A stretch of 64,000 bases of DNA from the NCBI GenBank assembly GCA_022843585.1, contig JALHNJ010000001.1:558001-622000 (forward strand), read 5' to 3'. The notes below the pieces were generated by a model. That model had not been told where the DNA came from and made no database searches. It worked only from the letters and a program-made list of their open reading frames with translations. Source of the stretch: Chitinophagaceae bacterium. Lineage in GTDB: Bacteria > Bacteroidota > Bacteroidia > Chitinophagales > Chitinophagaceae. The translations under genes and the position numbers were made by a program. Below, one piece after another: positions 13,099 through 31,972 of this stretch (its first letter is position 1; every line of letters begins with the position of its first letter).

Positions 13099-14652
13099 AT
13101 GGCAGATAAGAAAAAAGCACTTAAGGAATTAGAATGGAGCGGAAAATTGTTTGGTGGATTTCTGGCCGATATACGTAGAAAAGCACCTCACTATATCAGT
13201 GACTTTAAAGATGGAATGCATTCAAGTGTAGCAGGTGCTACACTATTCTTATTTTTTGCCGCATTAGCAAACGCTATTGCCTTTGGTGCATTGACGGGAG
13301 TTTTGACCGGTAATGAAATCGGCATTATTGAAATGATTGTGATTTCGGCAGTAGGCGGAATTATTTTTGCTCTTTTTTCCGGCCAACCCCTCACTATACT
13401 GGGTGGCACGGGTCCAATTGTAATTTTTACCGGGCTTCTTTATACCATATGCCAGCAAATGAATATACCCTTTCTGGCAACCTATGCCTGGGTTGGTATA
13501 TGGTCAGGTATTATATTAATGATTTCGGCTTTTACCGATGCCAGTGTCTTGATGAAATATTTTACCCGGTTTACAGACGAAATTTTTGCAGCCCTTATCT
13601 CAGTAATTTTTATAGTAGAGGCGGTAAGTGAAATAACAAAATCTTTTAAAGGAGAATCTAGTGATATTTCAGGTGCATTCTTAACGCTTATTTTGGCATT
13701 AGGTACCTTTATGCTTTCCCGGACATTTAAAAACTTTACTAAAACACCCTATCTCCGCAGTGGAATCAGGAATTTTATTAGTGATTTTGGTCCCGCACTG
13801 GCCATTCTGCTCATGACCGCTATTGCGTTGAATTTCCCGCAGGTGACACTTAATACGCCTAAGGTGCCAGATACGATCGGAACTACGTCGGGCAGACCCT
13901 GGATGGTTGACCTCTTTAACTTGCCGACATGGGCCATTTTTGCATCGATAGGGCCTGCATTACTGGCTTCAATTTTACTGTTTCTAGATCAAAATATTAC
14001 TACAAGACTTGTTAACTCACCTGATTATAAACTGAAGAAAGGCGGTGGTTATCATTTGGATATGGCTCTTGTGGGTTTGCTTGTATTAATGAGCAGTTTG
14101 TTTGCCCTTCCCTGGATAGTAGCGGCAACTGTTCATTCGCTAAACCATCTAAAGAGCCTTGCTAAAACTAAAGTTTTGGAGATTGAGGGTATAAAAAAAG
14201 AAATTATTACCGGAATCAGGGAAAATCGTTTGTCCGCATTAGCAATTCATTTTATGATAGCAGGCTCGATATTCTTTCTTCCCTATTTTGGATATATTCC
14301 AATGGCTGTACTGTTTGGTTTATTCCTGTATATGGGTTTTGCATCGTTGGGTGGCAATCAGTTTTTTGAAAGATTAATGCTTTGGGTCACAGATCCGCGG
14401 CTTAGTCCCCAAACAAACTATATTAAGACTGTTCCCCTGCGGACTATCCATAAGTTTACATTGATTCAGTTAGCCTGCTTCGTAATATTGTGGTTTTTAA
14501 AAGCATCCAAATTTGGCATACTCTTTCCACTTTTTATAGCTGCGCTGGTACCTATAAATCTTTTTATTAAACGTTACTTTTCTGAAGAGCATATGGAAGC
14601 GCTGCTTGCAGAAAATGATGATGAAGATGATGATGAGCATTTATTAGATTAA
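13099..14652 (+). CDS. SLC4-family (band 3-like) bicarbonate transporter
   Basis: The 517-residue polytopic membrane protein carries features diagnostic of the anion exchanger / Na+-bicarbonate cotransporter family better known in eukaryotes: FFAALANAIAFGALTG, FSGQPLTILGGTGPIVIF, and LDQNITTRLVN followed by KLKKGGGYHLD. The large cytoplasmic N-domain of the animal proteins is absent; only ~35 residues precede the first membrane segment. It ends in an acidic tail (DDEDDDEH). It is followed 13 bp later by nhaD in the same orientation, which suggests sodium-coupled bicarbonate uptake with the antiporter maintaining the Na+ gradient. Substrate and coupling are inferred. Confidence 0.85.
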   Translation: MADKKKALKELEWSGKLFGGFLADIRRKAPHYISDFKDGMHSSVAGATLFLFFAALANAIAFGALTGVLTGNEIGIIEMIVISAVGGIIFALFSGQPLTILGGTGPIVIFTGLLYTICQQMNIPFLATYAWVGIWSGIILMISAFTDASVLMKYFTRFTDEIFAALISVIFIVEAVSEITKSFKGESSDISGAFLTLILALGTFMLSRTFKNFTKTPYLRSGIRNFISDFGPALAILLMTAIALNFPQVTLNTPKVPDTIGTTSGRPWMVDLFNLPTWAIFASIGPALLASILLFLDQNITTRLVNSPDYKLKKGGGYHLDMALVGLLVLMSSLFALPWIVAATVHSLNHLKSLAKTKVLEIEGIKKEIITGIRENRLSALAIHFMIAGSIFFLPYFGYIPMAVLFGLFLYMGFASLGGNQFFERLMLWVTDPRLSPQTNYIKTVPLRTIHKFTLIQLACFVILWFLKASKFGILFPLFIAALVPINLFIKRYFSEEHMEALLAENDDEDDDEHLLD

Positions 14653-14665
14653 TTAGAATCAGGTT

Positions 14666-15946
14666 ATGGTCGTAATTATTTCCATCATTTTTATCGTTGG
14701 TTACCTCGCAATAGCACTGGAGCATCCATTGAGAGTGAATAAGGCAGCTTCTGCACTTATTACCGGTGTTCTTTGCTGGACTGTATTTGCATTGATGGGT
14801 GCTGGCGATCATTCCCCATCACACCAACTTACAGAATACCTGGGCGAAGTAGCCGGTATTTTATTTTTTTTGATGGGAGCCATGACGATTGTAGAATTAG
14901 TAGATGCACATGATGGATTTGAAATTATCACCAGCCGTATTCAAACAACCAGCAAGAAAAAATTAGTTTGGATCGTTGGTTTTATTACTTTTTTTCTTTC
15001 TGCAGTATTAGATAATCTTACCACTACAATTGTAATGGTATCGTTATTGCGAATAATCGCACCCGACAAAAAGGACAGGCTGTTATTTGCAGGTCTTGTA
15101 ATAATAGCTGCGAATGCTGGTGGAGCCTGGAGTCCTATTGGCGATGTTACCACTACGATGCTGTGGATAGGAGGGCAAATAACTGCGGGAAATATTATCA
15201 TTCAAACAATCATCCCCAGCCTTGTGTGCTTTTTGTTGCCGGCATTTATTATTAGCCGACAGGTAAAAGGAAATGCAATACGTAGAGAAGATGTAGAAAA
15301 AAGTAGAAATTACACCAGTAACAGTAGTGAACGCAATACCGTTTTTTGGTTAGGTATAGGTAGTTTATTATTTGTACCCATTTTTAAAACGGTTACTCAT
15401 TTACCACCCTATATGGGTGTTTTACTAGGCTTGGGTGTAATGTGGGTGATAACGGAATTGATACATAGCAAAAAGGACGAAGCAGAAAAAGGATTATATT
15501 CTGTTAATCATGCATTGCGAAAAATTGATACACCAAGTATTTTATTTTTCCTGGGTATTTTAATAAGTATTTCAGCTTTGCAGGCTACGGGTATTCTTAC
15601 AGACCTTGCCACCAAAATGGATAATTCAATAGGGAATATAAAAGTTATTACTATGTCTATTGGATTATTATCTGCTGTTGTTGATAATGTACCCCTGGTT
15701 GCTGCGGCACAAGGCATGTATAGCTTAGAGCAATATCCAACAGATCATTTCTTTTGGGAATTTTTAGCGTATTGCGCCGGCACCGGTGGAAGTTGTTTGA
15801 TCATTGGTTCTGCAGCAGGAGTAGCGGCAATGGGATTAGAAAAAATTGAATTTTTCTGGTATATGAAAAAAATTGGCTGGCTTGCATTGATTGGTTACCT
15901 CACTGGCGCAGCCACATTTCTTTTACAACATTATTTAGTTGCATAA
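14666..15946 (+). CDS. nhaD: NhaD-type Na+/H+ antiporter
   Basis: The 426-residue polytopic protein has the NhaD motifs: SAVLDNLTTTIVMVSLL near residue 115, and NAGGAWSPIGDVTTTMLW with the conserved polar cluster. A second inverted-repeat half holds SAVVDNVPLVAAAQGMY and GTGGSCLIIGSAAGVAAMG. Members exchange cytoplasmic Na+ or Li+ for protons in the inner membrane. It is 13 bp downstream of the SLC4-type gene, almost certainly co-transcribed, and converges on a carbonic anhydrase gene 4 bp away. A sodium-circulation role alongside bicarbonate transport is the simplest inference. Confidence 0.9.
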   Translation: MVVIISIIFIVGYLAIALEHPLRVNKAASALITGVLCWTVFALMGAGDHSPSHQLTEYLGEVAGILFFLMGAMTIVELVDAHDGFEIITSRIQTTSKKKLVWIVGFITFFLSAVLDNLTTTIVMVSLLRIIAPDKKDRLLFAGLVIIAANAGGAWSPIGDVTTTMLWIGGQITAGNIIIQTIIPSLVCFLLPAFIISRQVKGNAIRREDVEKSRNYTSNSSERNTVFWLGIGSLLFVPIFKTVTHLPPYMGVLLGLGVMWVITELIHSKKDEAEKGLYSVNHALRKIDTPSILFFLGILISISALQATGILTDLATKMDNSIGNIKVITMSIGLLSAVVDNVPLVAAAQGMYSLEQYPTDHFFWEFLAYCAGTGGSCLIIGSAAGVAAMGLEKIEFFWYMKKIGWLALIGYLTGAATFLLQHYLVA

Positions 15947-15950
15947 TCTT

Positions 15951-16586
15951 TTACAAATTATCATATTCATATAGTTCGTCAATATGTGTTCCGGCTTTCA
16001 TTTCATAAACAGGTTTGATTAAACCATCTTTAAGGCCGTACACCCATCCATGCAAATCAGGACGCTGTTCATTTTTCCAGGCTCGTTGTATGATGGAAGT
16101 TTTGGCTAAATTAAAAACTTGCTCCATTACGTTTAATTCAACTAGCCGATTAGTTTTTTTATCATCGTCTTGAAGTAAGTCGAGTTCTGACCGGTGAATA
16201 CGATATACATCTTTGATATTGCGCAGCCACATATTCAGTACTGGCTTAAAATCGTTATTGCTGATGGCAGCTTTTATACCGCCACAACCATAGTGGCCGC
16301 AAACAATTACATGTTTTACTTTTAAATGATTAACTGCATAATCTAATACACTTAAAACATTCACATCCGTATTTACAACAAGGTTGGCCACATTACGGTG
16401 CACAAAAATCTCTCCCGGCATGGTGCCGGTAATTTGGTTGGCTGGTACCCGGCTATCACTACACCCAATCCATAAATATTCGGGTGTCTGGAGTTCGGAG
16501 AGTTTATTAAAAAAATCGGGGTCTGCTTTCAACATATCAGCAGCCCATGTTTTGTTTTCTTGTAATAATAATTCGTAATTCAGCAT
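15951..16586 (-). CDS. can: Beta-class carbonic anhydrase (Can-like)
   Basis: The 211-residue enzyme interconverts CO2 and bicarbonate. The zinc ligands and catalytic dyad are all visible at the positions known for E. coli Can: Cys42, Asp44 and Arg46 in GCSDSRVPANQ, and His98 and Cys101 in GHYGCGG. It has no signal peptide, so it should be cytoplasmic. It converges with nhaD and lies between the two transporter operons. It is distinct from the other two carbonic anhydrases in the window, which share a different CMDSR/CIDSR and HTxCGA type. The surroundings suggest it hydrates or equilibrates imported inorganic carbon. Confidence 0.95.
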   Translation of the reverse strand: MLNYELLLQENKTWAADMLKADPDFFNKLSELQTPEYLWIGCSDSRVPANQITGTMPGEIFVHRNVANLVVNTDVNVLSVLDYAVNHLKVKHVIVCGHYGCGGIKAAISNNDFKPVLNMWLRNIKDVYRIHRSELDLLQDDDKKTNRLVELNVMEQVFNLAKTSIIQRAWKNEQRPDLHGWVYGLKDGLIKPVYEMKAGTHIDELYEYDNL

Positions 16587-16718
16587 AAGGCCTTGATTTT
16601 GGTCTCAAAAATAGCGTTAAACAGGTAGTGAAATACAAACAAGTGTTCGCTTTGGACAGATTAGAATGTTTTAATGAAAAAATGACACTAGAATTGAACT
16701 AATAGCAGCTTTCCATGT

Positions 16719-16726
16719 TATTTTTG
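16719..16726 (+). promoter_or_regulatory. Candidate -7 box upstream of the carbon-uptake cluster
   Basis: TATTTTTG fits TANNTTTG. TTG at 16694-16696 lies 22 bases upstream, slightly longer than the usual 19-20. The start codon of the small secreted protein is 65 bases downstream. Confidence 0.35.
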
Positions 16727-16791
16727 CAGCCCAACCTATCCAGAAGCGGTTTGGATTAAAAAATGCAAAGCCTTATTTTGCAGTACTTTCA

Positions 16792-17163
16792 ATGAAGAAT
16801 AAAATATATACCACACTTCAGCTAGGTTCTGCCGTATTGATGATACTGGCATTGCTGTGGCTAACAGTAAGTGCTCCTTTTGTGCAGGCAAGTCAACAAG
16901 CATTAGCGGAGCATGTGGCTACTTCATTTGAAACGGCATTACCCCTTTCTGATAATGAGGATGAAAATTCCAACCCTTTTGGAAATAATACAGAAGAAAA
17001 AGCACCAACCAGCAACACTTCTTTTTCTGAAGAGTATTTGCATGATAGTCACAAATCGGATTATTTGCTCTCTATAATATCCCTGTACCACAAATGTGAG
17101 AACGCAGGCATATACGTAGCCTTTCATGGGGAGTTGCTCGTTCCTCCGCCCAACCAGGCATAA
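16792..17163 (+). CDS. Unknown single-helix exported protein at the head of the dab cluster
   Basis: The 123-residue product has a basic start and one hydrophobic helix (LGSAVLMILALLWLTVSAPFV) that could be a signal peptide or an anchor. An acidic, Asn/Ser/Thr-rich linker (DNEDENSNPFGNNTEE) follows. A short C-terminal part contains LHDSHKSDYLLSII, HKCENAGIYVAFHG and a VPPPNQA end. I do not recognise the family. It lies 114 bp upstream of the carbonic anhydrase-SulP-dabA-dabB operon in the same orientation and has a promoter-like box of its own. Its His/Cys-containing tail would face the periplasm. A role in the carbon-uptake system is a guess from position. Confidence 0.7.
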   Translation: MKNKIYTTLQLGSAVLMILALLWLTVSAPFVQASQQALAEHVATSFETALPLSDNEDENSNPFGNNTEEKAPTSNTSFSEEYLHDSHKSDYLLSIISLYHKCENAGIYVAFHGELLVPPPNQA

Positions 17164-17253
17164 TTATTTTCTATTTAAAGGATAATGGCGCATTACAACG
17201 TCGTTCAATTACCTGTTTAATTTATTAATCAATCCTGCTGTCATTTTTTTAAT

Positions 17254-17264: not shown

Positions 17265-17277
17265 AACTTATAATAAA

Positions 17278-17946
17278 ATGAGAAAGCATTCTAAAGAATT
17301 TTTGGCAAATATGACTCCCTATCAGGGTTATGAATTATTAGTAGAAGGCAATAAGCGATTCCTCAATAATTTAAGCAAAGACCATGACCATCTGGAGATG
17401 ATAAACGAAACAAGAGAAGGTCAGTATCCTTTTGCTGTTGTGCTAAGTTGTATGGACTCCCGTGCTTCTGCCGAATTAGTATTTGACCAGGGACTCGGAG
17501 ATCTGTTCAGTATTCGGGTAGCTGGTAATATAGTTAATAATGATATACTTGCAAGTATTGAGTATGCAGTAAAATATATTGGTTCAAAAGTATTAATGGT
17601 ATTGGGTCATACAGAATGTGGAGCTATTAAAAGTGCAAAAGCAGGAGTGGAAGATGGACATATTACAGAATTGCTTAGCAGAATACAGCCTTCCATTAGC
17701 AAAGCGATGCTTAAAGATGATGGGGATTATTTATTCCATGATAGCGTTGCTTATACCAATGTAGAAAATAGCCTGGAGGAAATTTTAACCCGTAGCGAAA
17801 TAGTAAAGCAAATGTTTAAGAAAGGAGAAATCGGTCTTGTAGGCGGTGTATATAATATCAAAACCGGGGAGGTTGATTTCTTTAAGAACCTTACCAAAAA
17901 GAAAAAAGAAGACAAAAAGCAAGTAGCAGCTTTAAACAATAATTAA
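17278..17946 (+). CDS. Beta-class carbonic anhydrase, first CA-SulP module
   Basis: The 222-residue protein has the beta-carbonic anhydrase active site: Cys58, Asp60, Arg62 (SCMDSR) and His111, Cys114 (GHTECGA). Its first 120 residues align without gaps with the carbonic anhydrase at 29747-30397, showing that the two are paralogues. It begins without a signal peptide and ends in a Lys-rich tail. The gene is the first of a tight operon with SulP (34-bp gap), dabA (6 bp) and dabB (18 bp). It would equilibrate CO2 and bicarbonate at the cytoplasmic face of those transporters. That coupling is inferred from the operon and from known CA-SulP pairings. Confidence 0.95.
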   Translation: MRKHSKEFLANMTPYQGYELLVEGNKRFLNNLSKDHDHLEMINETREGQYPFAVVLSCMDSRASAELVFDQGLGDLFSIRVAGNIVNNDILASIEYAVKYIGSKVLMVLGHTECGAIKSAKAGVEDGHITELLSRIQPSISKAMLKDDGDYLFHDSVAYTNVENSLEEILTRSEIVKQMFKKGEIGLVGGVYNIKTGEVDFFKNLTKKKKEDKKQVAALNNN

Positions 17947-17980: not shown

Positions 17981-19603
17981 ATGAGTATTAGTACGAAGCA
18001 TCTCAAATCAGATTTACCAGCAGGTCTTGTAGTTTTTTTAGTAGCACTGCCTTTGTGCCTTGGCATTTCCATTGCCAGTGGGGCCACTCCCTTTAGCGGT
18101 TTAATAGCCGGTATTGTTGGTGGCATAGTTGTAGGTGCATTGAGTAATTCACCCTTAAGTGTAAGTGGCCCTGCGGCAGGACTTGCTACATTGGTAGCCG
18201 GTGCTATCACTGCTATTGGTGGCTTACAGAATTACAACCTGTTTTTATGTGCCGTTGTATTGGCCGGTGTAATACAAATTGGTCTGGGTGCACTTAAACT
18301 GGGTGGTATTGCCAATTATATTCCCGGAAGTGTTATCAAAGGGATGCTTACGAGTATTGGTATTCTCATTATTGCTAAACAGATTCCGCATGCATTCGGA
18401 AAGGATACAGATAAGCAAGGGCATATTACAGAACTATTCCCGTACGGTAATGAAGACTGGCATGAATTATTGATACCCCTTCAACAAATCGAAGTAGGAG
18501 TGGTCATAATTTCGATTGTATCGATTTTAATAATGATATTTTGGGATCGTTCCTCATTAAAAAAGAAAATCCCTTTTATTCCAAGTGCTTTGGTAGCGGT
18601 GGTTGCCGCTGTAATAATTAATCAGATTTGGATTTCGTCTGGCAGTAAAATGCAGATCGTAGAAGCACCCCATCTGGTTAATTTGCCAGTAGCACAAAGT
18701 GCTGGTGATTTTTTTAGTTTTTTTACCCTTCCGGATTTTAGCGGGTTTACCAATGGGACAGTTATTATGTATGCATTTATTATTGCCTTAATTGCATCGT
18801 TAGAAACATTGTTAAGTATTGAAGCGATTGATAATCTTGATCCGCAACGAAGAGTTACCAATACCAACAGGGAGCTATTTGCTCAAGGAGTAGGTAATAC
18901 AGTATCGGGTATGATTGGAGGTTTACCTATCACTAGTGTAATTGTTCGAAGCAGTGCCAATGTTAACGCAGGGGGAAGAACAAAGTTATCCACTATCTTT
19001 CATGCATCGTTATTACTTGTAAGCGTAATATCAATACCGCTGATATTAAATAAAATTCCGTTGGCCGCTCTGGCAGCTATTCTTATTCTAACTGGGTGGA
19101 AACTGGCAAAGCCAGCTGTATTTAAAGGCTTTTGGAAAGCGGGGAAATACCAGTTTATTCCATTTATTGTAACCGTTATTGTTATTATTGCAATTGATCT
19201 TTTCCAGGTGGCTCCGGTTTTAAGCGGAAAGGGTTTAATTATTGGTGTATTTGCGGGTATTATTGCTGCAACAGGCGCTATTTTACATGGAAATCTTAAA
19301 AATTCCTATTATTTCCATAGCGCAAAACATAAGCAAGGCGATACCATTACTGTACGCCTTTCAGAAGAAGTATCCTTTTTAAATAAAGCAGCCATACGGC
19401 AAACACTGGACCATATGCCGGAGAATTCTTCTGTTGTAATTGATGCATCTAATACCAAGTATATCGACTATGATGTATTGGAACTGATTAAAGAATTTAG
19501 CAGTATCAAGGCCCCTTTGAAAAATATTTCGCTGGAATTGAAAGGATTTAAAGAAGTTTATAAAATAGAAAACACATCTATGGTTCAATCTGGCACTAAA
19601 TAA
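17981..19603 (+). CDS. SulP-family anion (probably bicarbonate) transporter
   Basis: The 540-residue protein has the SulP membrane core (LPAGLVVFLVALPLCLGISIASG near residue 11, SVSGPAAGLATLV, and GMIGGLPITSVIVRSSANVNAG). A C-terminal STAS domain follows from about residue 445 (RLSEEVSFLNKAAIRQTL, VVIDASNTKYIDYDVLELI). SulP proteins move sulfate, bicarbonate or dicarboxylates. The cyanobacterial BicA is a Na+-dependent bicarbonate member. Placement directly between a carbonic anhydrase and dabA favours bicarbonate here, by inference. It is paralogous to the SulP at 30416-31972. Confidence 0.9.
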   Translation: MSISTKHLKSDLPAGLVVFLVALPLCLGISIASGATPFSGLIAGIVGGIVVGALSNSPLSVSGPAAGLATLVAGAITAIGGLQNYNLFLCAVVLAGVIQIGLGALKLGGIANYIPGSVIKGMLTSIGILIIAKQIPHAFGKDTDKQGHITELFPYGNEDWHELLIPLQQIEVGVVIISIVSILIMIFWDRSSLKKKIPFIPSALVAVVAAVIINQIWISSGSKMQIVEAPHLVNLPVAQSAGDFFSFFTLPDFSGFTNGTVIMYAFIIALIASLETLLSIEAIDNLDPQRRVTNTNRELFAQGVGNTVSGMIGGLPITSVIVRSSANVNAGGRTKLSTIFHASLLLVSVISIPLILNKIPLAALAAILILTGWKLAKPAVFKGFWKAGKYQFIPFIVTVIVIIAIDLFQVAPVLSGKGLIIGVFAGIIAATGAILHGNLKNSYYFHSAKHKQGDTITVRLSEEVSFLNKAAIRQTLDHMPENSSVVIDASNTKYIDYDVLELIKEFSSIKAPLKNISLELKGFKEVYKIENTSMVQSGTK

Positions 19604-19609
19604 CGTTAA

Positions 19610-22177
19610 ATGGGTTCAAACTTTGATGAAGACCATATACTGCATGAATTAAAACATTATTTGCCTTCGCAGCAGGCATTGAAGGATTTTATCCATCACA
19701 ATTCGTTGCATGCTTTCCAGCATATGAAATTTTATGACGCCATTTTTAAGGCGTCTAAAATTTTTGGATTCCAGGTGCATTTGCAATTGCCGGAATACCG
19801 TGCCATGTTCACAACCGGAAGAATACGGGAAGATGTGCTTCATATGGTGATTGCAAATAAGAAGGGCAAAGATGCTGTACAAGAATGGAAACAGAAGCTT
19901 ATCAAGCAGGATTTCGATACGATGAATCATCCAAGAATAGGACAATTAAGAAAATACTGGAAAGAGGTATATCACTTCGATTTAGATAATAACGTTCACC
20001 CACTCCTTTTTCGCATCCTTTGTGCTTTTTTAGATCAGGGCATTGCAATTGATAGTTTTCCGGTAGTGAATAAGCCTTTTATTGAAAGTGTAAGGGAGTT
20101 GGAACAAAATAGTTTTGTCAGTTTCTTTAAAACAAAAACTGTACGACAAAAATTTCTATCCGGTAATTATTCTATCCTGGAGTTATTAAAAACAATTGTT
20201 GGTAAAGAAGAGTACTTCGAACAATACATATTCGACCAGCAATTTGCGCATCATGGATGGAGCGGTTTTGTAAGTGCGGTGGAAGACAATCCACATACTT
20301 TGCTTGACAGGAAGCAGATAACTTTGAAAGAATTACTGGAGTTTGAGTTGTTGATGGAACTGGATGCACTCCATCATGCATTGGGGAATAAATGGCAACC
20401 GTTAACTAATCATGTTACGGTACCGCCGGTTAATTTATTTGCTGATGTTCCTAAAACAGAATTGGCAGAAGTAATAGAACTCTGGCAAGATGCTTTTGAA
20501 TGGAGTTACTATGACTCGGTGTTGAAAGGAATCAGCATGTCTGATGAAAAAAGAATGGCCGTAAATGGCCAGGGCCTTATCAGTACATCTTCAACCGAAC
20601 AGGCCGGCCCTTCGCTTCAGGCTATTTTTTGTATTGACGAAAGAGAAGATTCAATCCGACGCCACATTGAAGCTGTAGATAAAAAATCGGAAACATTTGG
20701 CGCACCGGGTTTCTTTGGTGTTGAATTTTACTTTCAACAAGAAGGCGGTAAGTTTTACGATAAGCTTTGCCCGGCACCCGTTACACCAAAATACCTGATC
20801 AAAGAATCTGATGCCAAATCAATACGAAAAGGTGAATTGATCTATACAAAGCTTACACATGGAATTTTATCAGGATTTCTTTTAAGCATCAGTTTTGGTT
20901 TTTGGGCACTTGTAAAAAAGATACAGTTATTGTTTAGCCCTAAAATGAGCCCGGCTATTTCGGATGCTTATGCGCATATGGATAAGCTGTCAACACTCAC
21001 AATCGAAAATAAAAATCCGGCCAATATTGAAAACGGATTACAGGTAGGCTATACTCTGGATGAAATGGTAACCAGAGGGGAAAATTTTTTACGGGGTATT
21101 GGCCTGATCAAAAATTTTGCACCTATTGTTTATTTTGTGGCACATGGCAGTAGTAGTGCCAATAATCCGCATCACGGCGCACATGATTGTGGTGCCTGCA
21201 GCGGACGACCTGGAGCAACCAATGCAAGAGTACAGTCCTTTATTTTAAATCATAAAAAAGTAAGAGAAGTATTAGCAACAAAAGGAATTGTTATTCCTGC
21301 TACTACACAGTTCATCGGTAGTATGCATGATACAGCGGCAGATGTGTGGGGTTATTATGATGAAGATATACTCACTCCTGCAAATGCTCAATTGCATTTA
21401 ATCAACAAACAAAACTTCGAAACAGCTTTGAACCTTAATGCAAAGGAAAGAAGCCGCCGTTTTGCTTCCATCAATACAAAACAGGAATTAGAACAGGTAC
21501 GCAAAGCCATTCACAGCCGGTCGGTTTCTTTGTTTGAGCCAAGACCTGAACTGGGACATGGCACCAACACTTTAGCTATTATCGGTCGCCGACAAACAAC
21601 TAAAGGTTTATTTCTCGACAGAAGAGCTTTCTTAAATAGTTATGATTATACAACAGATCCAGACGGAGCAATTTTAACAGCGGTAATGCGGCCGATCGGT
21701 TTGGTTTGTGGTGGTATTAATCTGGAATATTATTTCTCCAGGGTTGATAACATAAAAATGGGAGCTGGTACTAAACTGCCGCATAATGTAGTGGGTTTGT
21801 TTGGTGTGGCTAATAGCAGTGATGGTGATTTGCGCCCTGGCCTTCCCTGGCAAATGATTGAAGTACATGATCCTGTTCGCTTGTTGGTGATTGTGGAGCA
21901 CCAGCCGGACATTGTTTTGAAAGCTATTCAATCATCACCAGAAGTGTTTGAATGGTATAATAATGAGTGGGTGCATATCGTAGCATTGCACCCGGTAGAA
22001 AAACAATTTTACTATTTTAAGAAAGGTTCCTTTGTAAAATATGATCCCATTACTAATGCCAGTGAGATAAAAACAATTCACAACATGGAAGAGTTTATTG
22101 AAGGGGCAAAGGAGATGGAAACAAATCAAATTGTACATGCCACGGAAGAGAATTTGCCAGTGTATTTGCTCGATTAG
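19610..22177 (+). CDS. dabA: DabA, zinc-containing subunit of the CO2-uptake complex (DUF2309)
   Basis: The 855-residue protein is a full-length member of the family once called DUF2309, now DabA. DabA forms an energy-coupled CO2 hydration complex with DabB. The zinc-site residues defined in Halothiobacillus DabA (Cys351, Asp353, His524, Cys539) have counterparts here at Cys341 and Asp343 (CIDEREDS), His512 (AHGSSS) and Cys527 (HDCGACSG), with nearly identical spacing. It is a carbonic-anhydrase-like peripheral membrane protein on the cytoplasmic side. It sits 6 bp after SulP and 18 bp before dabB. Gene order is dabA-dabB, opposite to the well-studied dabB-dabA arrangement. Confidence 0.93.
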   Translation: MGSNFDEDHILHELKHYLPSQQALKDFIHHNSLHAFQHMKFYDAIFKASKIFGFQVHLQLPEYRAMFTTGRIREDVLHMVIANKKGKDAVQEWKQKLIKQDFDTMNHPRIGQLRKYWKEVYHFDLDNNVHPLLFRILCAFLDQGIAIDSFPVVNKPFIESVRELEQNSFVSFFKTKTVRQKFLSGNYSILELLKTIVGKEEYFEQYIFDQQFAHHGWSGFVSAVEDNPHTLLDRKQITLKELLEFELLMELDALHHALGNKWQPLTNHVTVPPVNLFADVPKTELAEVIELWQDAFEWSYYDSVLKGISMSDEKRMAVNGQGLISTSSTEQAGPSLQAIFCIDEREDSIRRHIEAVDKKSETFGAPGFFGVEFYFQQEGGKFYDKLCPAPVTPKYLIKESDAKSIRKGELIYTKLTHGILSGFLLSISFGFWALVKKIQLLFSPKMSPAISDAYAHMDKLSTLTIENKNPANIENGLQVGYTLDEMVTRGENFLRGIGLIKNFAPIVYFVAHGSSSANNPHHGAHDCGACSGRPGATNARVQSFILNHKKVREVLATKGIVIPATTQFIGSMHDTAADVWGYYDEDILTPANAQLHLINKQNFETALNLNAKERSRRFASINTKQELEQVRKAIHSRSVSLFEPRPELGHGTNTLAIIGRRQTTKGLFLDRRAFLNSYDYTTDPDGAILTAVMRPIGLVCGGINLEYYFSRVDNIKMGAGTKLPHNVVGLFGVANSSDGDLRPGLPWQMIEVHDPVRLLVIVEHQPDIVLKAIQSSPEVFEWYNNEWVHIVALHPVEKQFYYFKKGSFVKYDPITNASEIKTIHNMEEFIEGAKEMETNQIVHATEENLPVYLLD

Positions 22178-24807: not shown

Positions 24808-24827
24808 AATAAAATAATTAATCTTTT

Positions 24828-25133
24828 TTAATCAAAGTCAAACAAGTTACTTAAAAATCCGCCTCGTCTGCGATTTGGGTTATCATTGTTATTGTTTCTT
24901 CTGCCTTGGCTAAAGAACCCTTCATCATCGTCGTCATCGTCATCATCCAATTGGTTTCTTTTTTTATCATTTTGTTTCAACTGTTGGTTTGATTCCGCAG
25001 TCGCCGACTTTTCAATTATTTTATCTAGCTCGCCTTTATCGAGCCAAACACCCCGGCACTTCGGGCAGTAGTCGATTTCTACTCCTTGTCTTTCTGCCAT
25101 TACCAATAACTCTTCGCAAGATGGACATTTCAT
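24828..25133 (-). CDS. Small zinc-ribbon (TFIIB-type) protein
   Basis: The 101-residue protein starts with a zf-TFIIB-like ribbon: MKCPSCEELLVMAERQGVEI then DYCPKCRGVWLDKGELD, giving two CxxC pairs. The remainder is low-complexity: a run of Asp residues (DDDDDDDD), then Asn/Arg-rich sequence and a final LSNLFDFD. Such proteins are common and uncharacterised, and are thought to bind zinc. It lies between TolC (28-bp gap) and the TerC-family gene, so it is probably co-transcribed with a possible metal transporter. That may hint at a metal link. Confidence 0.8.
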   Translation of the reverse strand: MKCPSCEELLVMAERQGVEIDYCPKCRGVWLDKGELDKIIEKSATAESNQQLKQNDKKRNQLDDDDDDDDEGFFSQGRRNNNNDNPNRRRGGFLSNLFDFD

Positions 25134-25161
25134 GATTTTGATTTTTAGGGTTATGAAATTA

Positions 25162-26640
25162 TTATAATAAATTTCCTGCTGCCCATTGCAGCATATTTTC
25201 TGTTTTAAAAAATTTGGCTTTCAGCTCTTGTAATTTTTGCAAGGCCTCCAATGTTTTATTTTCCCTCGCATTGATAAGGAATAAAGAACTTTCCCCCGCC
25301 TGGAAACGAATTTCTTCGCCCCGCTGCAAGGCATAATAATTCTTGTAAGCCTTCTCTTGTAATACAATCTGTGATTTTAATGTCAATAATTCATTATAGT
25401 AGCTTTTCACTTTGTTTTCTATTTGCAATTGCTTCTGACTTTGTTGCAATCGGGTTTCTGTGATTTTTAATTTTGCTTTTCGGTATTCACCCCTTCCTTC
25501 AGATAGCCGTAGTGGTATCCCTACTGATAATCCATATTGAAAATTATTTTCAAATAAAGGGCCAGTTGCTGTTTTCAGCACATTATATCCTTTGCCTAGT
25601 TGATTGTAACGAAAATTTGCAACCGGTAATAAGTTCTGGAATTTTAATTTCTTTTCAATTCCCAATGCAGCCAACGCATAATTGTATAGCAACAGTTCCG
25701 GATGATTGATGCGGGCAGCAGACAATAAACTATTTAAGTCGGGTATGATTGCTGTATTAAGGTTGATAGTTTGTAAATCAGCATCCGGTACTACTGTTTC
25801 CGGTAAATCATAAGGTTGTGAATCGGCTGTCCATAAATAAATGGATAAATCCAAGCCTGCATTTTGAAAATCTAACCAGGCCTGGCTTTGTAACAACTCA
25901 AAATTTTGTAATTGGGTTAATGCTTCTGTTGTATCAATAGCGGGTCGGTCGCCTAGTTGAAAAGCTGTTTTTACTAATTGCACCCTTTTTTCATTTATCG
26001 CTACCGCATCGGTTAGTATTTTAAAAGCCTGGTATTGCTGTGTCCACGTCCAATAGCTTTTCATTGCATCCAGCAGCAAGTTGTTCAGCATATTTCTTTT
26101 TTCTGCTTCTGAAGCAGTACGATAAATTTTTGCTGTTTGTAATGATGCCCTTCTTTTATCCATCAGCAAATTTTTTGCTAATGGTATGCTGATGCCGAAA
26201 TAGCTGGTTTCTCCCAAAGTTTCCTCTGGGGATGTGCGGCTGCCGGATAATTTTTCTAATCCCGTGCTTACTTCCACGCCAAACCAGGTGGGAATGGTTA
26301 ATTCCGGACGGTTATACAGATAATAGTCACTGCCATCAAATGTTTTTTGTGCGGATTCAATTTTTAGAACCGGGTCAAACATTCCGTTGGCAATAGTTAC
26401 ATCGGCTTTTGCTTTTTCAATAAATATATCGGCTTGCTTTGCAACCGGATGAAATTGTTTTACAATTTCCATTACCTGTTGTGGCGAAAGTGTTTTTTTA
26501 TTTTGATTATTTTGTGCAGCCGAGAATAGAGATAACACTAGCAGTGTAATTATCAGGAAGCAAATAATAAGCAACATCTTGCGCCGGTTATTTCTTCTAC
26601 GTAGCCATTTATACGTTCTGTGTTTTTTATGCGTAATCAT
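25162..26640 (-). CDS. TolC-family outer-membrane efflux protein
   Basis: The 492-residue protein has an N-terminal membrane/signal segment after a basic stretch (MLLIICFLIITLLVLSLF). The long alpha-helical coiled-coil repeats of TolC channel-tunnel proteins follow (for example MEIVKQFHPVAKQADIFIEK and the LLQSQAWLDFQNAGLDL half-repeat). It would form the outer-membrane conduit for the HlyD and ABC proteins encoded just upstream. Its start codon overlaps the hlyD-like stop by 4 bases, indicating translational coupling. The exported substrate is unknown; no small toxin or bacteriocin gene is adjacent. Confidence 0.88.
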   Translation of the reverse strand: MITHKKHRTYKWLRRRNNRRKMLLIICFLIITLLVLSLFSAAQNNQNKKTLSPQQVMEIVKQFHPVAKQADIFIEKAKADVTIANGMFDPVLKIESAQKTFDGSDYYLYNRPELTIPTWFGVEVSTGLEKLSGSRTSPEETLGETSYFGISIPLAKNLLMDKRRASLQTAKIYRTASEAEKRNMLNNLLLDAMKSYWTWTQQYQAFKILTDAVAINEKRVQLVKTAFQLGDRPAIDTTEALTQLQNFELLQSQAWLDFQNAGLDLSIYLWTADSQPYDLPETVVPDADLQTINLNTAIIPDLNSLLSAARINHPELLLYNYALAALGIEKKLKFQNLLPVANFRYNQLGKGYNVLKTATGPLFENNFQYGLSVGIPLRLSEGRGEYRKAKLKITETRLQQSQKQLQIENKVKSYYNELLTLKSQIVLQEKAYKNYYALQRGEEIRFQAGESSLFLINARENKTLEALQKLQELKAKFFKTENMLQWAAGNLL

Positions 26641-27944
26641 TTTATTTGTTTATTTGCATCCAGGAATGGTTTATAATAATCTGGCGGAAAACCATTGATA
26701 TTCCGCCATAGTTCATACCACACCGGTACATCTTTTAATAATGCAATGCCCTGTGCGCCGGCACCAATTTTTAATTGCTTTGGCCAGGGTTTATCTGTTG
26801 GATCTTCTTGTACCAGTACCCTGAATTTTCCATTTATACTTACATTACTTTCTACTGCTACTATCACCCCGCCAAATGTGCCGGATGATGCATTGGGCCA
26901 TCCGCTAAAGACGATTGCCGGAAAACCATCAAAAAGAAAGCGAACTTTTTGTCCGGAAGCTAATAGTGGTAAATCCAGCGGACGAACAAATAGTTCTACT
27001 GCATACTGAATTTTATCGGGTACTATTTCGGCAATCATATCACCCTCTTTTACAAATTCACCAATGCCGGCTTTTTGAGCTTTTACTACTTGTCCGCTTT
27101 GCGATGCCAATACATAATACATACCGTTACGGATATTATAACTGGCGTATTGGTTTTCCAGCTTGGCTATATCTGCCTGTCCGCTGGCGATTTGTGTCAG
27201 TGATTGAAACTGTTCTCCCTGTGCCTTGGTTACTTTTTCAATGTTCTCCTGCTGCAGGGCATTCATTTCGATTTTTGTTATAGTAAGATCCTGTTTGCTA
27301 TTCGCTAATTTATTTTCAGCACTTATTTTTTTAGCCAAGGCATTTTGGTATTGCTGGTTCCTTATTTCTAATTGCGTTAAGGAAACAAGTCCGCTATCAT
27401 ACATGGCTTTTTGGCGGTTGTATTGTTTGGTACCAATTAAAAAATCATTGTTGGCGGCAGCAGCTTCAGCACTGTCGGCCTGCACTTTCAAGTTTAATTG
27501 GTTCAGTTTATTCAGTAACTGGTTTAATTTTAATTGCAAACCAGTATTGATAGCGCCGATCTGCTGGTTGGCTACACCTACTTTGCTTTTATAATATTCA
27601 ACTGATAATTGTTTGCCGGCCAACTGCTCTTGTGTTCGTTGCAACAGATTTGGGTCGAGGTAATCTACTTTTACCTCTGACAACTGTATTAAAGTGTCAC
27701 CAGCTTTTACATAGTCGCCTTCTTTGATATGCCATTTCATTACCCGCCCACCGATAATCGTATTGACTTGTTGAGGCCGCTGATCCTGGTACAAAGTGGT
27801 AACTGAACCCGTTGCTCTTATGTTTTGTGTCCACGGTAGAAATAGGAAAATAATAAAGATGCCTATGCAGAGATAAAACCAAAGCCTTACTTTACTTTTT
27901 TTATCATGCTGATAAATTCGTGTATATGATTTAAAGTCGTTCAT
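26637..27944 (-). CDS. HlyD-family membrane fusion protein
   Basis: The 435-residue adaptor has one N-terminal transmembrane helix (VRLWFYLCIGIFIIFLFLPW). A biotinyl-lipoyl half-domain follows (GGRVMKWHIKEGDYVKAGDTLIQLS), then a long coiled-coil hairpin (about residues 100-260), the second lipoyl half (SGQVVKAQKAGIGEFVKEGD) and a beta-barrel. It bridges the inner-membrane ABC protein and TolC. The gene is 11 bp after the ABC gene and overlaps the tolC-like gene by 4 bases. Length and layout are normal for the family. Confidence 0.88.
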   Translation of the reverse strand: MNDFKSYTRIYQHDKKSKVRLWFYLCIGIFIIFLFLPWTQNIRATGSVTTLYQDQRPQQVNTIIGGRVMKWHIKEGDYVKAGDTLIQLSEVKVDYLDPNLLQRTQEQLAGKQLSVEYYKSKVGVANQQIGAINTGLQLKLNQLLNKLNQLNLKVQADSAEAAAANNDFLIGTKQYNRQKAMYDSGLVSLTQLEIRNQQYQNALAKKISAENKLANSKQDLTITKIEMNALQQENIEKVTKAQGEQFQSLTQIASGQADIAKLENQYASYNIRNGMYYVLASQSGQVVKAQKAGIGEFVKEGDMIAEIVPDKIQYAVELFVRPLDLPLLASGQKVRFLFDGFPAIVFSGWPNASSGTFGGVIVAVESNVSINGKFRVLVQEDPTDKPWPKQLKIGAGAQGIALLKDVPVWYELWRNINGFPPDYYKPFLDANKQIK

Positions 27945-27955
27945 ATTTATTTAGT

Positions 27956-29611
27956 TTAATTTTTGAGACTACCATTTTCATTCATCACTAGCTGCTTAGT
28001 ACATTGTTTGGCAAAATCATCATCATTGCTTACTACCACCACAGTTGTATTTTTCAAACTCAGGAGTAATTGAACAATTTGTTGGCGGTGGCTATTTTGA
28101 AAATTCATCCACGGCTCTTCTAATAAGAGCAGGCTAGGCTTGGCCGCCAGTGCCCTTACCAATAAAATCTTATGCACTACACTTCGGGATAATCGCTTTC
28201 CAGTTGGGTCGAGCAACGTGTCGTATCCATTCTTAAGGGTGGCGATAAAATCATTTAGTCCGGTTTTTGCAGCCAGATCCTTCACGGTTTCTACATTTAC
28301 CTTTTCATTACCTAGTGAAATGTTTTCCCAAAGTGTACCCTGGAAAATATCCTGTTGGCTAAGAAGCACACCAGTTTGTGCCCGTAAAGAATCGAGATTG
28401 TAATTACCGACCGGCATATCATTTAGAAGAAAAGCTCCGGTAAAATCAGTGTAAGCACCAGTCATAAACTTTAATAAAGTTGATTTGCCTGAACTGTCCT
28501 TGCCGGTGATACAAATTTTTTCGTTAGCATTTATTTCCAGGGAAATATTTTCTAGAATTTTTTTCTCATCGTTATAACTAAAACTAACATCCTTCATTTC
28601 GATCTTAAGACCCTTTTCAGTTGTCTGTAAAAAGATTGACCCATTTTGTTCAACTGGTTTATCCGTTATTTCCGAAATTTTTTCTACGGCAGTAAGCGTA
28701 TCATACACACTGGTGAGGTTGATGATGAGTTTTTCAACCGAGTTCAGTACCAGCAGTATTACTATTTCGCCGGCGATAAACTGGCCAACGGTTAGTTGTT
28801 GATTTACCATGAGTAAAGTACCTACAATCAGCATGGCTGCTGTAATGAGGGTTTTAAAAATCACCAGTATATTAAATTGGAAAAGCAATACCTGAAAGTG
28901 TTTATTTCGGGCATCGAGGTAATTACTTACTTCGTCATCAGCTTTTCGCATATGCATGGAATTGTTTTTACCGAGCTTTACTGATAACAGGATGCGAGCC
29001 ATTTCTTCCAGCCATGCTGCTACTTTGTATTTGTATTTACTTTTTTCCAGGCTGGTTTGCAATCCCTTACCGCCAGTAAATCGGAGAATTAGTATAAGTA
29101 CTGTTATCAGAATAATCCCAAATAAAATAAATGCCGGGTGATAGGAAGAAAGTAGTATCAGACCAAATAGAATTTGTATTACCGCTGTAGGAATTTCAAG
29201 CAAAATTTTTGACAGGCTTTTTTGTAGCAATGGCACATCAAAAAAACGGTTAACCAATTCGGGAAGGTAAACAGTATCATTTTTTTTCAGATCCAGATTT
29301 GGCAAATGATTGGCAAACGCAAAGGAATATCTTACAAAAAGTTTTTGCTGAATTTTTTCAATAATCTTCATCTGGTTTACCTGCATAATGCCTGCAATGA
29401 GTACCCCGACTACTACCAAAATTATAAGTACCACTAATGATGCCCGCATAGAAGCACCCAGTACATAACCAATAATGGCCTGTACTCCTACAGGCAGTGA
29501 AAGTTGTATTAGCCCATTCAGGATTGCATAAAAATAGATTGCAGTTATTTCTTTTCGCTCCAGTCGCAGCAGGTTTAATATCCTGGCAACCGGGCTTGCT
29601 TTTGTTGGCAT
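27956..29611 (-). CDS. Type I-secretion-like ABC transporter with degenerate ATPase motifs
   Basis: The 551-residue half-transporter has about six membrane helices (residues ~20-310) and a C-terminal nucleotide-binding domain. There is no peptidase C39 domain. Walker A (GKDSSGKST) and a Q-loop (LLSQQDIFQGT) are present. The signature reads LSRSV instead of LSGGQ, Walker B reads LLLLEEP (Asp replaced by Glu, catalytic Glu kept), and the switch-His region is VVVVSNDDD with no His. ATP hydrolysis may therefore be weak or lost, or the partner site may be adapted. It opens the ABC-HlyD-TolC run and lies 100 bp after a strong terminator that separates it from the carbonic anhydrase gene. Confidence 0.88.
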   Translation of the reverse strand: MPTKASPVARILNLLRLERKEITAIYFYAILNGLIQLSLPVGVQAIIGYVLGASMRASLVVLIILVVVGVLIAGIMQVNQMKIIEKIQQKLFVRYSFAFANHLPNLDLKKNDTVYLPELVNRFFDVPLLQKSLSKILLEIPTAVIQILFGLILLSSYHPAFILFGIILITVLILILRFTGGKGLQTSLEKSKYKYKVAAWLEEMARILLSVKLGKNNSMHMRKADDEVSNYLDARNKHFQVLLFQFNILVIFKTLITAAMLIVGTLLMVNQQLTVGQFIAGEIVILLVLNSVEKLIINLTSVYDTLTAVEKISEITDKPVEQNGSIFLQTTEKGLKIEMKDVSFSYNDEKKILENISLEINANEKICITGKDSSGKSTLLKFMTGAYTDFTGAFLLNDMPVGNYNLDSLRAQTGVLLSQQDIFQGTLWENISLGNEKVNVETVKDLAAKTGLNDFIATLKNGYDTLLDPTGKRLSRSVVHKILLVRALAAKPSLLLLEEPWMNFQNSHRQQIVQLLLSLKNTTVVVVSNDDDFAKQCTKQLVMNENGSLKN

Positions 29612-29702
29612 TGGTTGGAATTTAGTACTTACTACTTTTATTTATCAATTTTTAGAGATCTCTTTGAGGAGGACGAGATAATTGTAATATGATACATAAT
29701 AT

Positions 29703-29741
29703 AAAAAAATACTTCAGGCAGGTTGCTAACGCTGCCTGAAG
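29703..29741 (-). terminator. Terminator after the second CA-SulP module
   Basis: CTTCAGGCAG (29712-29721) and CTGCCTGAAG (29732-29741) form a perfect 10-bp stem, with an inner GTT/AAC pairing. Read on the minus strand it is followed by TATTTTTTTAT. It ends the SulP-CA transcript before the ABC gene. Confidence 0.85.
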
Positions 29742-29746
29742 TGGTT

Positions 29747-30397
29747 TTACTTAGGACTGTTAATAATTAAAGTATCCTCATAAAAATTTACAGCACCTGA
29801 TGCAATGTCATGTGTGCCTCCAGCAATCCCAATGGCACCGCTTTCAATCAGTTCTTTTAAAATAGGGCTACGCTCCATTATGGCATGTACTGTTCTTTTT
29901 ACATTAATGGTGGCAACTTTTTCTACAAAATCATTGTTGCTGGAATTTCGGTTTTCTGCTACTGTTTTTTCATCGTACACAGCAGGTTGGATTTTACTTA
30001 GTAAAGCTGTAAGGTTACCCATTTCCACATGGTCACAGGCGCCTTTTACAGCACCGCATTTTGTGTGGCCAAGCACGACTATAATTTTTGCACCGGCCAC
30101 TTTGCAACCAAATTCCATGCTTCCTAATATATCTTCATTAATGATATTGCCTGCAATGCGAACACTGAATACATCGCCCAATCCCTGGTCAAAAATTAAT
30201 TCAGCAGATGTACGGGAATCAATGCAACTTAAAATAACAGCAAAAGGATGTTGCCCATCTGATGTTTCATTTGCTTGTTGCAAAAGGTTCCGGTTAGCTT
30301 TCAGGTTATTTATAAACCTGTCGTTTCCTTTTTTTAAAATTTCCAGAGCCATGGTGGGAGTTATGGCTTCTTGCATTTCTTTCGTTAATGTTTTCAT
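29747..30397 (-). CDS. Beta-class carbonic anhydrase, second CA-SulP module
   Basis: The 216-residue enzyme has Cys58, Asp60, Arg62 (SCIDSR) and His111, Cys114 (GHTKCGA). The numbering is identical to the paralogue at 17278-17946, which it resembles along its whole length. It is cytoplasmic by lack of a signal peptide. It lies 18 bp downstream of the SulP gene, so here the order is SulP then carbonic anhydrase, the reverse of the other module. A terminator follows directly. Likely role: interconversion of CO2 and bicarbonate moved by the neighbouring transporter. Confidence 0.95.
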   Translation of the reverse strand: MKTLTKEMQEAITPTMALEILKKGNDRFINNLKANRNLLQQANETSDGQHPFAVILSCIDSRTSAELIFDQGLGDVFSVRIAGNIINEDILGSMEFGCKVAGAKIIVVLGHTKCGAVKGACDHVEMGNLTALLSKIQPAVYDEKTVAENRNSSNNDFVEKVATINVKRTVHAIMERSPILKELIESGAIGIAGGTHDIASGAVNFYEDTLIINSPK

Positions 30398-30415
30398 TAT
30401 ACTTTTTTTAATTGT

Positions 30416-31972
30416 TTATAAATAGGCTGTTTCAATAAATTTTATTTTTTCAACAGTAATGTTTTTTGTTTTAGCATTAACTTCATAGTTTTTTATTAAT
30501 TCAATTACATCGTATGCGACGGATTTTGAATTGGAAAAATCAATAATCACTTTTGAATTGGCCGGAATTTCTTCCAGTTCCTTTATTACACTGGCTTTAT
30601 TAAAAAACGAAACTTCCTCTGCTAAAACAAGATGATAAGTTTGTATGCCACCTACAGTGGTAACAGTTTCTTTCATGTAGTGTGAGTTTCGATAGCTGTG
30701 AAGCAATGCATAAAAACCACCCACTATCAATCCTGCAGTAATTCCTTTTAGTAAGTCGGTTAATATAATGGCCACTACAGTAACAATAAATGGTACAAAT
30801 TGCTCCCAACCGAGTTTATACATCTGCTTAAAAAGAACAGGCTTCGCTAATTTAAAACCTACAATAATTAATATAGCAGCTAAACTGGCAAGCGGAATCA
30901 TATTAAGCAGACCGGCAATAGTAATGGCACTGATTAATAAAAATACACCGTGCAGTATGGCCGACAATTTTGTTTTACCGCCAAATGAAATATTTGCAGA
31001 ACTGCGGACAATTACCTGTGTAAGAGGTAAACCACCAATGAGACCTGAAATAACATTTCCTAGCCCCTGTGCTTTCAGCTCTCTGTTAGTAGGTGTAACT
31101 CTTTTTTGAGGGTCCATTTTGTCTGTAGCTTCAACACATAATAATGTTTCCAAACTTGCCACAATGGCTAACACAACCGCTACTTCCAAAACTTTTAGAT
31201 TGGAAATGGCAGAAAAATCAGGGAAAGTAAAAAAACTAAAGAACTCGGTTAAGTTATTAGCTACAGGCAGCCTTACTACCTGGTCTTCGGCTAAGCTAAA
31301 GTTTAAAGTGCCTGACTGATATAGCGAATTCATTACAATACCCAGCACAACTACTACAATAGGCCCTTGCAGTAATTGAAAAATACGGTGCTTTTTCGTG
31401 AGCACTTTGTCCCATAATATCAATAATGCTATTGAAATTGCCGCAATTAAAAAAGCTCCGGGTGTAATAGCATTTAAAGCATTGCTAAGGGCTGAGAATG
31501 TAGTGCCTCCGTCCGCTTGTAAAAATGAAAGATCACCTCCGGCATCCTTATCATATCCAACAGCATGAGGTATTTGTTTTAAAATAATCAAGAGCCCAAT
31601 ACCGGTAAGCATACCTTTTATTACCGAGGAAGGAAAGAAATAGGCAATAAACCCGGCTTTCGCAAAGCCCATGATAAGCTGTATAATTCCGGCCAGCACA
31701 ACTGCTAATAAAAAAGCAGGCCAAGAGCCTAGGGCAGTTATAGAAGTTAATACAATAACGGCTAAACCGGCTGCGGGGCCACTAACACCGAGGGGCGAAC
31801 CGCTGGCAATACCCACAACAATACCACCAACTATTCCAGCAATAATACCTGCAAAAAGCGGTGCACCCGAAGCGAGGGCAATGCCTAAGCATAAGGGGAC
31901 AGCTACAAAAAAAACGACTATACTCGCCGGGAGGTCGTTTTTAATTTCCTTGAAGACGTTTTTTGTAACCAT
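30416..31972 (-). CDS. SulP-family anion (probably bicarbonate) transporter, second copy
   Basis: The 518-residue protein mirrors the SulP at 17981-19603: LPASIVVFFVAVPLCLGIALASG near residue 14, GVSGPAAGLAVIVL, and LIGGLPLTQVIVRSSANISFGG. A C-terminal STAS domain contains AEEVSFFNKASVIKELEEI and VIIDFSNSKSVAYDVIELI. Substrate is inferred as bicarbonate from pairing with a carbonic anhydrase 18 bp downstream. It is divergent from a TetR gene. Its promoter region holds a TANNTTTG-type box overlapped by operator-like repeats, suggesting repression by that regulator. Confidence 0.9.
   Translation of the reverse strand: MVTKNVFKEIKNDLPASIVVFFVAVPLCLGIALASGAPLFAGIIAGIVGGIVVGIASGSPLGVSGPAAGLAVIVLTSITALGSWPAFLLAVVLAGIIQLIMGFAKAGFIAYFFPSSVIKGMLTGIGLLIILKQIPHAVGYDKDAGGDLSFLQADGGTTFSALSNALNAITPGAFLIAAISIALLILWDKVLTKKHRIFQLLQGPIVVVVLGIVMNSLYQSGTLNFSLAEDQVVRLPVANNLTEFFSFFTFPDFSAISNLKVLEVAVVLAIVASLETLLCVEATDKMDPQKRVTPTNRELKAQGLGNVISGLIGGLPLTQVIVRSSANISFGGKTKLSAILHGVFLLISAITIAGLLNMIPLASLAAILIIVGFKLAKPVLFKQMYKLGWEQFVPFIVTVVAIILTDLLKGITAGLIVGGFYALLHSYRNSHYMKETVTTVGGIQTYHLVLAEEVSFFNKASVIKELEEIPANSKVIIDFSNSKSVAYDVIELIKNYEVNAKTKNITVEKIKFIETAYL

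Follow-up and report, generated by a model that had tools for sequence, protein, structure and literature searches.

A 64,000-nucleotide stretch of the genome of a Chitinophagaceae bacterium (contig JALHNJ010000001.1, positions 558,001 to 622,000; called the window here, with positions counted from its first letter) encodes, between positions 13099 and 31972, an SLC4-family transporter, an NhaD-type Na+/H+ antiporter, three beta-carbonic anhydrases (CAs), two SulP transporters, and the DabA/DabB (DAB) complex, as found by profile searches of the window. We favor, with moderate confidence, the interpretation that these genes serve bicarbonate supply and pH homeostasis and that the locus was assembled in a conserved, shuffling hotspot of the Chitinophagaceae family. 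An earlier note on this DNA, made from the sequence alone, had named these gene types and the ends of the locus, and Pfam and NCBIfam matches placed all of them exactly within this interval. Likewise, its proposal of three or more uptake mechanisms agrees with the presence of three distinct transporter families (DAB, SulP, and SLC4). The genes of the locus are as follows:

13099..14652, + strand: SLC4-family (HCO3_cotransp) transporter, 517 amino acids (aa), transmembrane domain only (PF00955, 552 bits)
14666..15946, + strand: NhaD-type Na+/H+ antiporter (NF038006 over and TIGR00775 under cut-off)
15951..16586, - strand: beta-carbonic anhydrase 1 (CA1), E. coli Can/PRK10437-like (PF00484, 184.5 bits; NF007756, 247.5 bits against a cut-off of 251)
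16792..17163, + strand: uncharacterized 123-aa single-pass membrane protein, first gene of the CA2-SulP1-DabA-DabB run (20 homologues)
17278..17946, + strand: beta-carbonic anhydrase 2 (CA2) (PF00484, 136.4 bits; catalytic motifs)
17981..19603, + strand: SulP transporter 1 (PF00916, 212.9 bits)
19610..22177, + strand: DabA (PF10070, 681 bits; aligned to DabA2 of 9rd0)
22196..24052, + strand: DabB, NuoL/Mrp-like membrane subunit (PF00361, 131 bits; DabB2 of 9rd0_B, E 6.6e-28)
29747..30397, - strand: beta-carbonic anhydrase 3 (CA3) (PF00484, 132.1 bits; NF011765, 257 bits against a cut-off of 221)
30416..31972, - strand: SulP transporter 2 (PF00916, 198 bits)

The SLC4 and NhaD genes lie 13 bp apart on the + strand, and CA1 is on the opposite strand between NhaD and the gene of the 123-aa protein. 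The latter heads a run with CA2, SulP1, DabA, and DabB, in which the gaps are 114, 34, 6, and 18 bp in order. A second pair, SulP2 and CA3, is on the - strand with a gap of 18 bp. Because CA2 and CA3 are 47% identical and SulP1 and SulP2 51% identical, this second pair is an old relative of the first and not a fresh copy.

In the genome (4.49 Mb in 20 contigs, 100% complete, 0.62% contamination), Pro_CA matched three times (E ≤ 0.001), always at the locus and within 14.2 kb; the chance that three random positions cluster so tightly is about 3e-5. The RuBisCO large subunit (PF00016) had no match in the whole genome, where 5 of 14 control genomes matched, and phosphoenolpyruvate carboxylase (PEPC) was found as two matched stretches inside one open frame. 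The earlier note had seen no Rubisco gene and proposed a check of the whole genome for Rubisco and PEPC; the family matches uphold its picture of a composite locus for inorganic carbon in an organism without detected RuBisCO, and PEPC is present. All three CAs keep the catalytic motifs C-x-D-x-R and H-x-x-C, and no membrane segments or evident signal peptide were found in any of them; by sequence, all three are probably cytosolic.

DabA keeps the zinc-site residues C341, D343, R345, H512, and C527, corresponding to C351, D353, R355, H524, and C539 of DabA2, mutants of which gave growth yields significantly different from wild type (PMC13144422). The SulP proteins scored 128.7 and 129.9 bits with the BicA equivalog model, far under its cut-off of 880, and belong to the SulP family without being BicA itself. 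SulP1 also matched the solved structure 6ki1 (E 2.8e-26), which is filed as a low affinity sulfate transporter and which we take to be BicA. Adjacency to CA genes and the weak similarity to BicA suggest bicarbonate as a candidate SulP substrate.

A conserved but shuffling hotspot

The locus lies between two sets of genes in the window, one on each side:

8613..12986, left flank: enolase (-), secreted CHU_C protein (+), ABC ATPase (-)
32825..36829, right flank: DUF6814 (-), MFS transporter (-) by Pfam, acetyl-CoA synthetase (ACS) (+)

We used ACS as the landmark, which was present at full length and at least 75% identity in 22 of 29 same-genus genomes, our own included, and matched at E ≤ 0.001 in 27 of the 29. 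ACS-side stretches were taken from 20 of the 28 other same-genus genomes, chosen for a usable ACS match; three of these (G581, G595, and G602) were dropped for having no enolase/ABC side, leaving 17 readable hotspots, of which one (G606) breaks off at CA1. In 16 of the 17, the hotspot is bordered by enolase and the ABC ATPase, and the seventeenth is cut before them. CA1 was found in 15 of these hotspots, SulP (at least 45% identity) in 12, the 123-aa gene in 10, NhaD in 7, DabA/DabB in 6, and SLC4 in none. At least one locus gene occurs in every readable hotspot except that of G155. Four hotspots (G576, G584, G609, and G601) hold NhaD, two CAs, one SulP, and DAB, and so every gene type except SLC4, with fewer CA and SulP copies than here. 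The neighborhood without SLC4 is thus kept in relatives, contrary to the possibility, raised in the earlier note, that no relative would conserve it.

Conservation extends beyond the genus. DabA scored over cut-off in 15 of 195 genomes of the same family, our own included, and the stretches around the 14 others were all fetched, some of them being short contigs. Three carriers in other genera (G091, G086, and G167) have the same hotspot, and in four more genomes (G159, G032, G120, and G140, the last weakly) DabA lies near CA or SulP. In G191, a homologue of the 123-aa gene precedes DabA. Six family genomes (G030, G124, G039, G072, G013, and G187) have only a distant DabA, 22-36% identical by stretch, and no CA or SulP was found beside it.

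In unrooted single-gene trees of 10-12 genomes, our DabA grouped with that of G086 (support 0.998), in agreement with DabB (0.888), and our SulP1 grouped with that of G576 (0.995), while enolase and ACS grouped with those of G608 (0.986 and 0.857). The ACS of G021 is a paralogue (38%) in these trees, and the SulP1 tree splits into two deep groups, so that paralogues are perhaps mixed in it. Because the gene trees disagree with the flank trees, parts seem to have been exchanged at a fixed site. We conclude that the locus is a conserved but shuffling, mosaic hotspot of variable gene content.

The 123-aa protein at the head of the DAB run had been overlooked in the first reading of the locus. It matched no Pfam or NCBIfam family, and among the loci scanned it has 20 homologues in 19 other genomes. 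The next recognized gene on the same strand after these homologues was CA2 in 9 cases, SulP in 10, and DabA in 1 (20 of 20), although one of the 10 SulPs is only 24% like SulP2. The profile was built from 14 sequences, our own included, picked near such loci and hence biased. A phylum-wide search with this profile, which was not bound to the locus, found the family in 6 of 395 genomes, namely our own and five of the same family, in all of which the homologue precedes CA2 or SulP; this search, which was limited to 11 scored candidates per genome, may have overlooked some homologues. The SulP hotspots of G596 and G598, in the same genus, show no 123-aa homologue, which weighs against a strict link. 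Invariant residues of the family include parts of the membrane helix, EEK, and G-E with PPP at the end. The dN/dS ratio was computable for five of the six pairs and lay at 0.10-0.15; in three of these pairs, dS exceeded 1.7, which is close to saturation. The predicted structure is one long helix with a loose tail (predicted local distance difference test score, pLDDT, 62). The protein may be an accessory subunit, an assembly factor, or a sensor of the operon.

The SLC4-family transporter and its distribution

The PF00955 match of the window SLC4 reached 552 bits against a cut-off of 27, in two stretches across the membrane domain; the N-terminal cytosolic domain is missing. A PDB search with this protein matched 17 sequences, all of them SLC4 or borate transporters of the SLC4 family. 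The best solved relative was NBCe1 (6caa; 368 bits, E 1.2e-108), and scores were 350-355 bits for NDCBE and other Na+-coupled members, 316-321 for AE1-3, 257 for SLC4A11, and 170-172 for Bor1. Judged from these scores, animal SLC4s are nearer relatives of the protein than borate transporters are. Cryo-EM of NDCBE showed that D800, T804, and T847 bind Na+ and that T538 and G539 bind carbonate, with K970 in a second site (PMC8478935). All six residues are kept in the window SLC4, as D297, T301, T344, T104, G105, and K468, respectively. The structure predicted for the protein (pLDDT 36) was not usable.

The window SLC4 was the only one over cut-off among the 195 same-family genomes and among 395 genomes of the phylum (a sample that overlaps that of the family), and no further carrier was found among 18 relatives. 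Four matches below cut-off (G107, G221, G535, and G634) scored 19-21 bits, and three of the four have internal stops. A second bacterial SLC4, 64% identical to that of the window, is encoded in a Flavobacteriaceae metagenome-assembled genome (MAG; JAGLAZ010000001.1, L004, 9992-11557), which was itself the only carrier among 320 genomes of its family. These two carriers were the only positive controls for PF00955, which matched none of 14 control genomes. Because our genome is absent from the matches in the MAG's family, the two carriers belong to different families. A profile of both bacterial proteins ordered the structure groups as the window SLC4 did. The scan of wider genome contigs used short peptide patterns, which may miss relatives; no SLC4 was found on plasmids, nor in viral contigs by peptide patterns, for which sensitivity is low.

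The MAG gene is chromosomal, in a setting of gyrase/topoisomerase IV, ETF, and thiolase genes, and is followed by a gene for a DUF2306 membrane protein. We considered whether it is part of a similar locus and rejected this, as no other locus gene lies within 10 kb on either side; moreover, DabA had no match in the MAG genome, the completeness of which is not stated. The scatter of the two carriers is a sign of lateral gain, and SLC4 probably arrived in this way and docked beside NhaD. A microbial eukaryote as the donor is only a guess. Contamination by eukaryotic DNA was rejected, because the SLC4 gene is a single open frame with bacterial genes on both sides, and its contig extends past 1.2 Mb. 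Its codon composition is within the range of its neighbors (G+C 0.394, GC3 0.346).

Function of the locus

Heterotrophs need bicarbonate for carboxylations, and to our knowledge the acquisition of bicarbonate at low CO2 by free-living Bacteroidota has been little studied. In the bicarbonate-supply interpretation, DabA/DabB would use the proton motive force (PMF) to hydrate CO2 entering the cell, giving cytoplasmic bicarbonate, and SulP1 and SulP2, each beside a CA, would import bicarbonate. The SLC4 protein would import bicarbonate or carbonate with Na+ (a putative direction), and the adjacent NhaD would return Na+ in exchange for H+; together, the pair would draw net bicarbonate uptake from the membrane potential and could act as a pH guard in alkaline or low-CO2 water. 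The 13-bp spacing of the two genes suggests such a Na+-cycled bicarbonate importer. The three CAs would balance CO2 and bicarbonate for PEPC and other carboxylases. More tentatively, and with less than even confidence, we propose that an animal-type Na+-coupled SLC4 was captured, perhaps from a microbial eukaryote, and docked on a conserved DAB/SulP/CA locus, where it would form with NhaD a two-gene Na+ cycle pumping bicarbonate, and that the small leading membrane protein may be an unrecognized accessory or sensor of bicarbonate uptake.

Several findings weigh against this interpretation. The window SLC4 has H346 where NDCBE has L849, NBCe1 I803, and AE1 R730, and G103 where NDCBE (Ser537) and NBCe1 have Ser; both substitutions are common to the two bacterial proteins and make Na+ coupling less than certain. 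A non-polar residue in place of Arg730 of AE1 is expected in the Na+-coupled branch, and because His is neither Leu/Ile nor Arg, we assign the protein to SLC4 and not to that branch. Nor is the branch settled by score, because the MAG protein on its own scores almost as high with AE1 as with the Na+-coupled members (349 against 357 bits). NhaD need not serve SLC4, because none of the seven same-genus hotspots with NhaD contains SLC4, and no NhaD lies within 10 kb of the MAG SLC4. Many losses, in place of lateral gain, may explain the scattered distribution of SLC4. Moreover, the similarity of the SulPs to BicA is weak, DAB and CA coexist here in a pairing said to be rare (PMC8567241), and DAB, CA, and the transporters look redundant.

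The locus could instead serve mainly Na+ and pH homeostasis in alkaline or salty water through SLC4, NhaD, and the CAs, with carbon supply secondary. This agrees with the close spacing of SLC4 and NhaD, with CA1 as the most constant gene of the hotspots (15 of 17) and the presence of NhaD in 7, and with the pH control proposed for SulP-CA in Acidithiobacillus (PMC6458275). However, the zinc-site residues of DabA are intact, and DAB2 is described as a PMF-driven CO2-hydration system that uses protons rather than Na+ (PMC13144422), and we regard a mainly Na+/pH role as rather unlikely. Less likely still is that SLC4 and the SulPs carry other anions (borate, sulfate, or chloride), which would leave DAB and the CAs as the only inorganic-carbon genes. 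The low BicA scores of the SulPs (129 and 130 against 880 bits), the His at the Arg730 place, and the borate transporters within the SLC4 family would fit this explanation, but the window SLC4 scored 316-368 bits with NBC, NDCBE, and AE chains and only 170-172 with Bor1, the six Na+ and carbonate residues are kept, and SulP adjoins CA or DabA in many hotspots.

The earlier note had read the locus as a system that concentrates CO2 or bicarbonate and controls pH. The composite bicarbonate and pH reading stood, and the concentrating role was not supported; supply and pH control fit better. A CO2-concentrating mechanism (CCM) is known to be defeated by free cytosolic CA, which brings CO2 and bicarbonate to equilibrium, and the three CAs here, apparently cytosolic and with intact motifs, would equilibrate the pool. 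Because cytosolic CAs would prevent a far-from-equilibrium pool unless uptake outruns leakage, we favor supply and buffering over a CCM. An unusual true CCM that feeds a non-Rubisco carboxylase is suggested by the three transporter families together and by PEPC, yet two features of the genome speak against it, namely that PF00016 has no match and that the three CAs, apparently free in the cytosol, would leak the pool as CO2; we consider it very improbable.

Much of the locus has known counterparts. Anaplerotic bicarbonate uptake was suggested for a Bacteroidetes genome, that of the proteorhodopsin-bearing heterotroph Schleiferia, with PEPC, CA, and a putative bicarbonate transporter (PMC4148732). 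The locus described here has more transporters, and no rhodopsin was matched in the genome, in a search that had no working control (no control genome matched). SulP-CA clusters occur in many organisms, such as can2-sulP of Acidithiobacillus and SulP-CA fusions, and a SulP beside a CA is argued to be a bicarbonate importer or a pH device (PMC6458275); here, SulP adjoins a beta-CA twice, and one such pair is joined to DAB and headed by the small membrane protein. Homologues of DAB/MpsAB are reported in heterotrophs too (PMC13144422, PMC6689103), those of mpsAB are known in Bacteroidetes, and MpsAB was proposed to be a Na+/bicarbonate symporter (PMC6689103). The locus shares with DabA2-DabB2 of Halothiobacillus and MpsAB of Staphylococcus the five mutation-tested DabA2 residues and an adjacent NuoL-like DabB, but it has DAB in one run with CA and SulP, in a genome with three CAs; MpsAB and CA are reported to replace one another and to be seldom found together, although species with both are listed (PMC8567241). 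Finally, the SLC4 protein resembles the Na+-coupled NBCe1 and NDCBE in its full transmembrane domain and six site residues and differs from them in being bacterial, in having no N-terminal cytosolic domain, in the His and Gly noted above, and in its place beside NhaD.

The earlier note knew of no description of this combination. Its parts turned out to be less novel than thought (PMC6689103, PMC6458275, PMC4148732), and no bacterial SLC4, in such a locus or elsewhere, was described in the titles and abstract openings of the papers listed. The portions seen of a 2026 review treat animal, plant, and fungal tissues and do not contain "prokaryot", and their passage with "bacteri" concerns UraA and SLC26Dg (PMC13263692); likewise, nothing bearing on a bacterial SLC4 stood in the parts seen of four other papers (PMC9542443, PMC5853954, PMC11194058, PMC10219603). 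Each carbon module is of a known kind, and what is new is the pairing of SLC4 with NhaD, together with the small protein at the head of the run. Older reviews reportedly mention SLC4-like genes in bacteria, and we therefore make no claim of a first bacterial SLC4. A bacterial SLC4 without a regulatory domain would be a convenient system in which to study the human transporters and how Na+ coupling arose, the hotspot offers natural variants for comparison (CA alone, CA with SulP, and the additions of DAB, NhaD, and SLC4), and the small leading protein is a testable unknown.

Other genes and features of the region

One further block lies within the locus:

24061..29611, - strand: TerC, a zinc-ribbon protein, and a TolC-HlyD-ABC export block (Pfam; not inorganic-carbon genes)

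The earlier note had called the whole a 19-kb inorganic-carbon island. The carbon genes are there, but about 5.5 kb (24061-29611) is other cargo and the marks of a mobile island are missing. The ABC2-HlyD-TolC block is optional, being present in 8 of the 17 same-genus hotspots, and the zinc-ribbon protein has an acidic tail. The G+C content is steady (0.35-0.40 per 2-kb step), and no tRNA was found at the locus. The genes lie between two copies of a 21-nt direct repeat that are 86% alike, one at 13018-13038 and the other, within a TetR gene, at 32531-32551; short two-copy repeats often arise by chance, and this one is probably such a case. With the G+C inside the window's range, tRNA genes absent, the flanks conserved, and the repeat taken as chance, a mobile island is not supported. 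No RNA family scored above its gathering score within 8000-37000.

The NhaD protein scored 151.6 bits with NF038006 (cut-off 80) and 399.5 bits with TIGR00775 (cut-off 577). In two relatives (L057 and L047), a divergent SulP, 27-28% identical to those of the window, lies near the ABC ATPase. On the right flank, the gene of DUF6814 (81 aa, 32825-33070) adjoins the MFS gene in our genome and in 15 others among the loci scanned, and G601, G606, and G609 have a more distant MFS transporter (58-59%) without DUF6814; DUF6814 is perhaps a partner of the MFS transporter.

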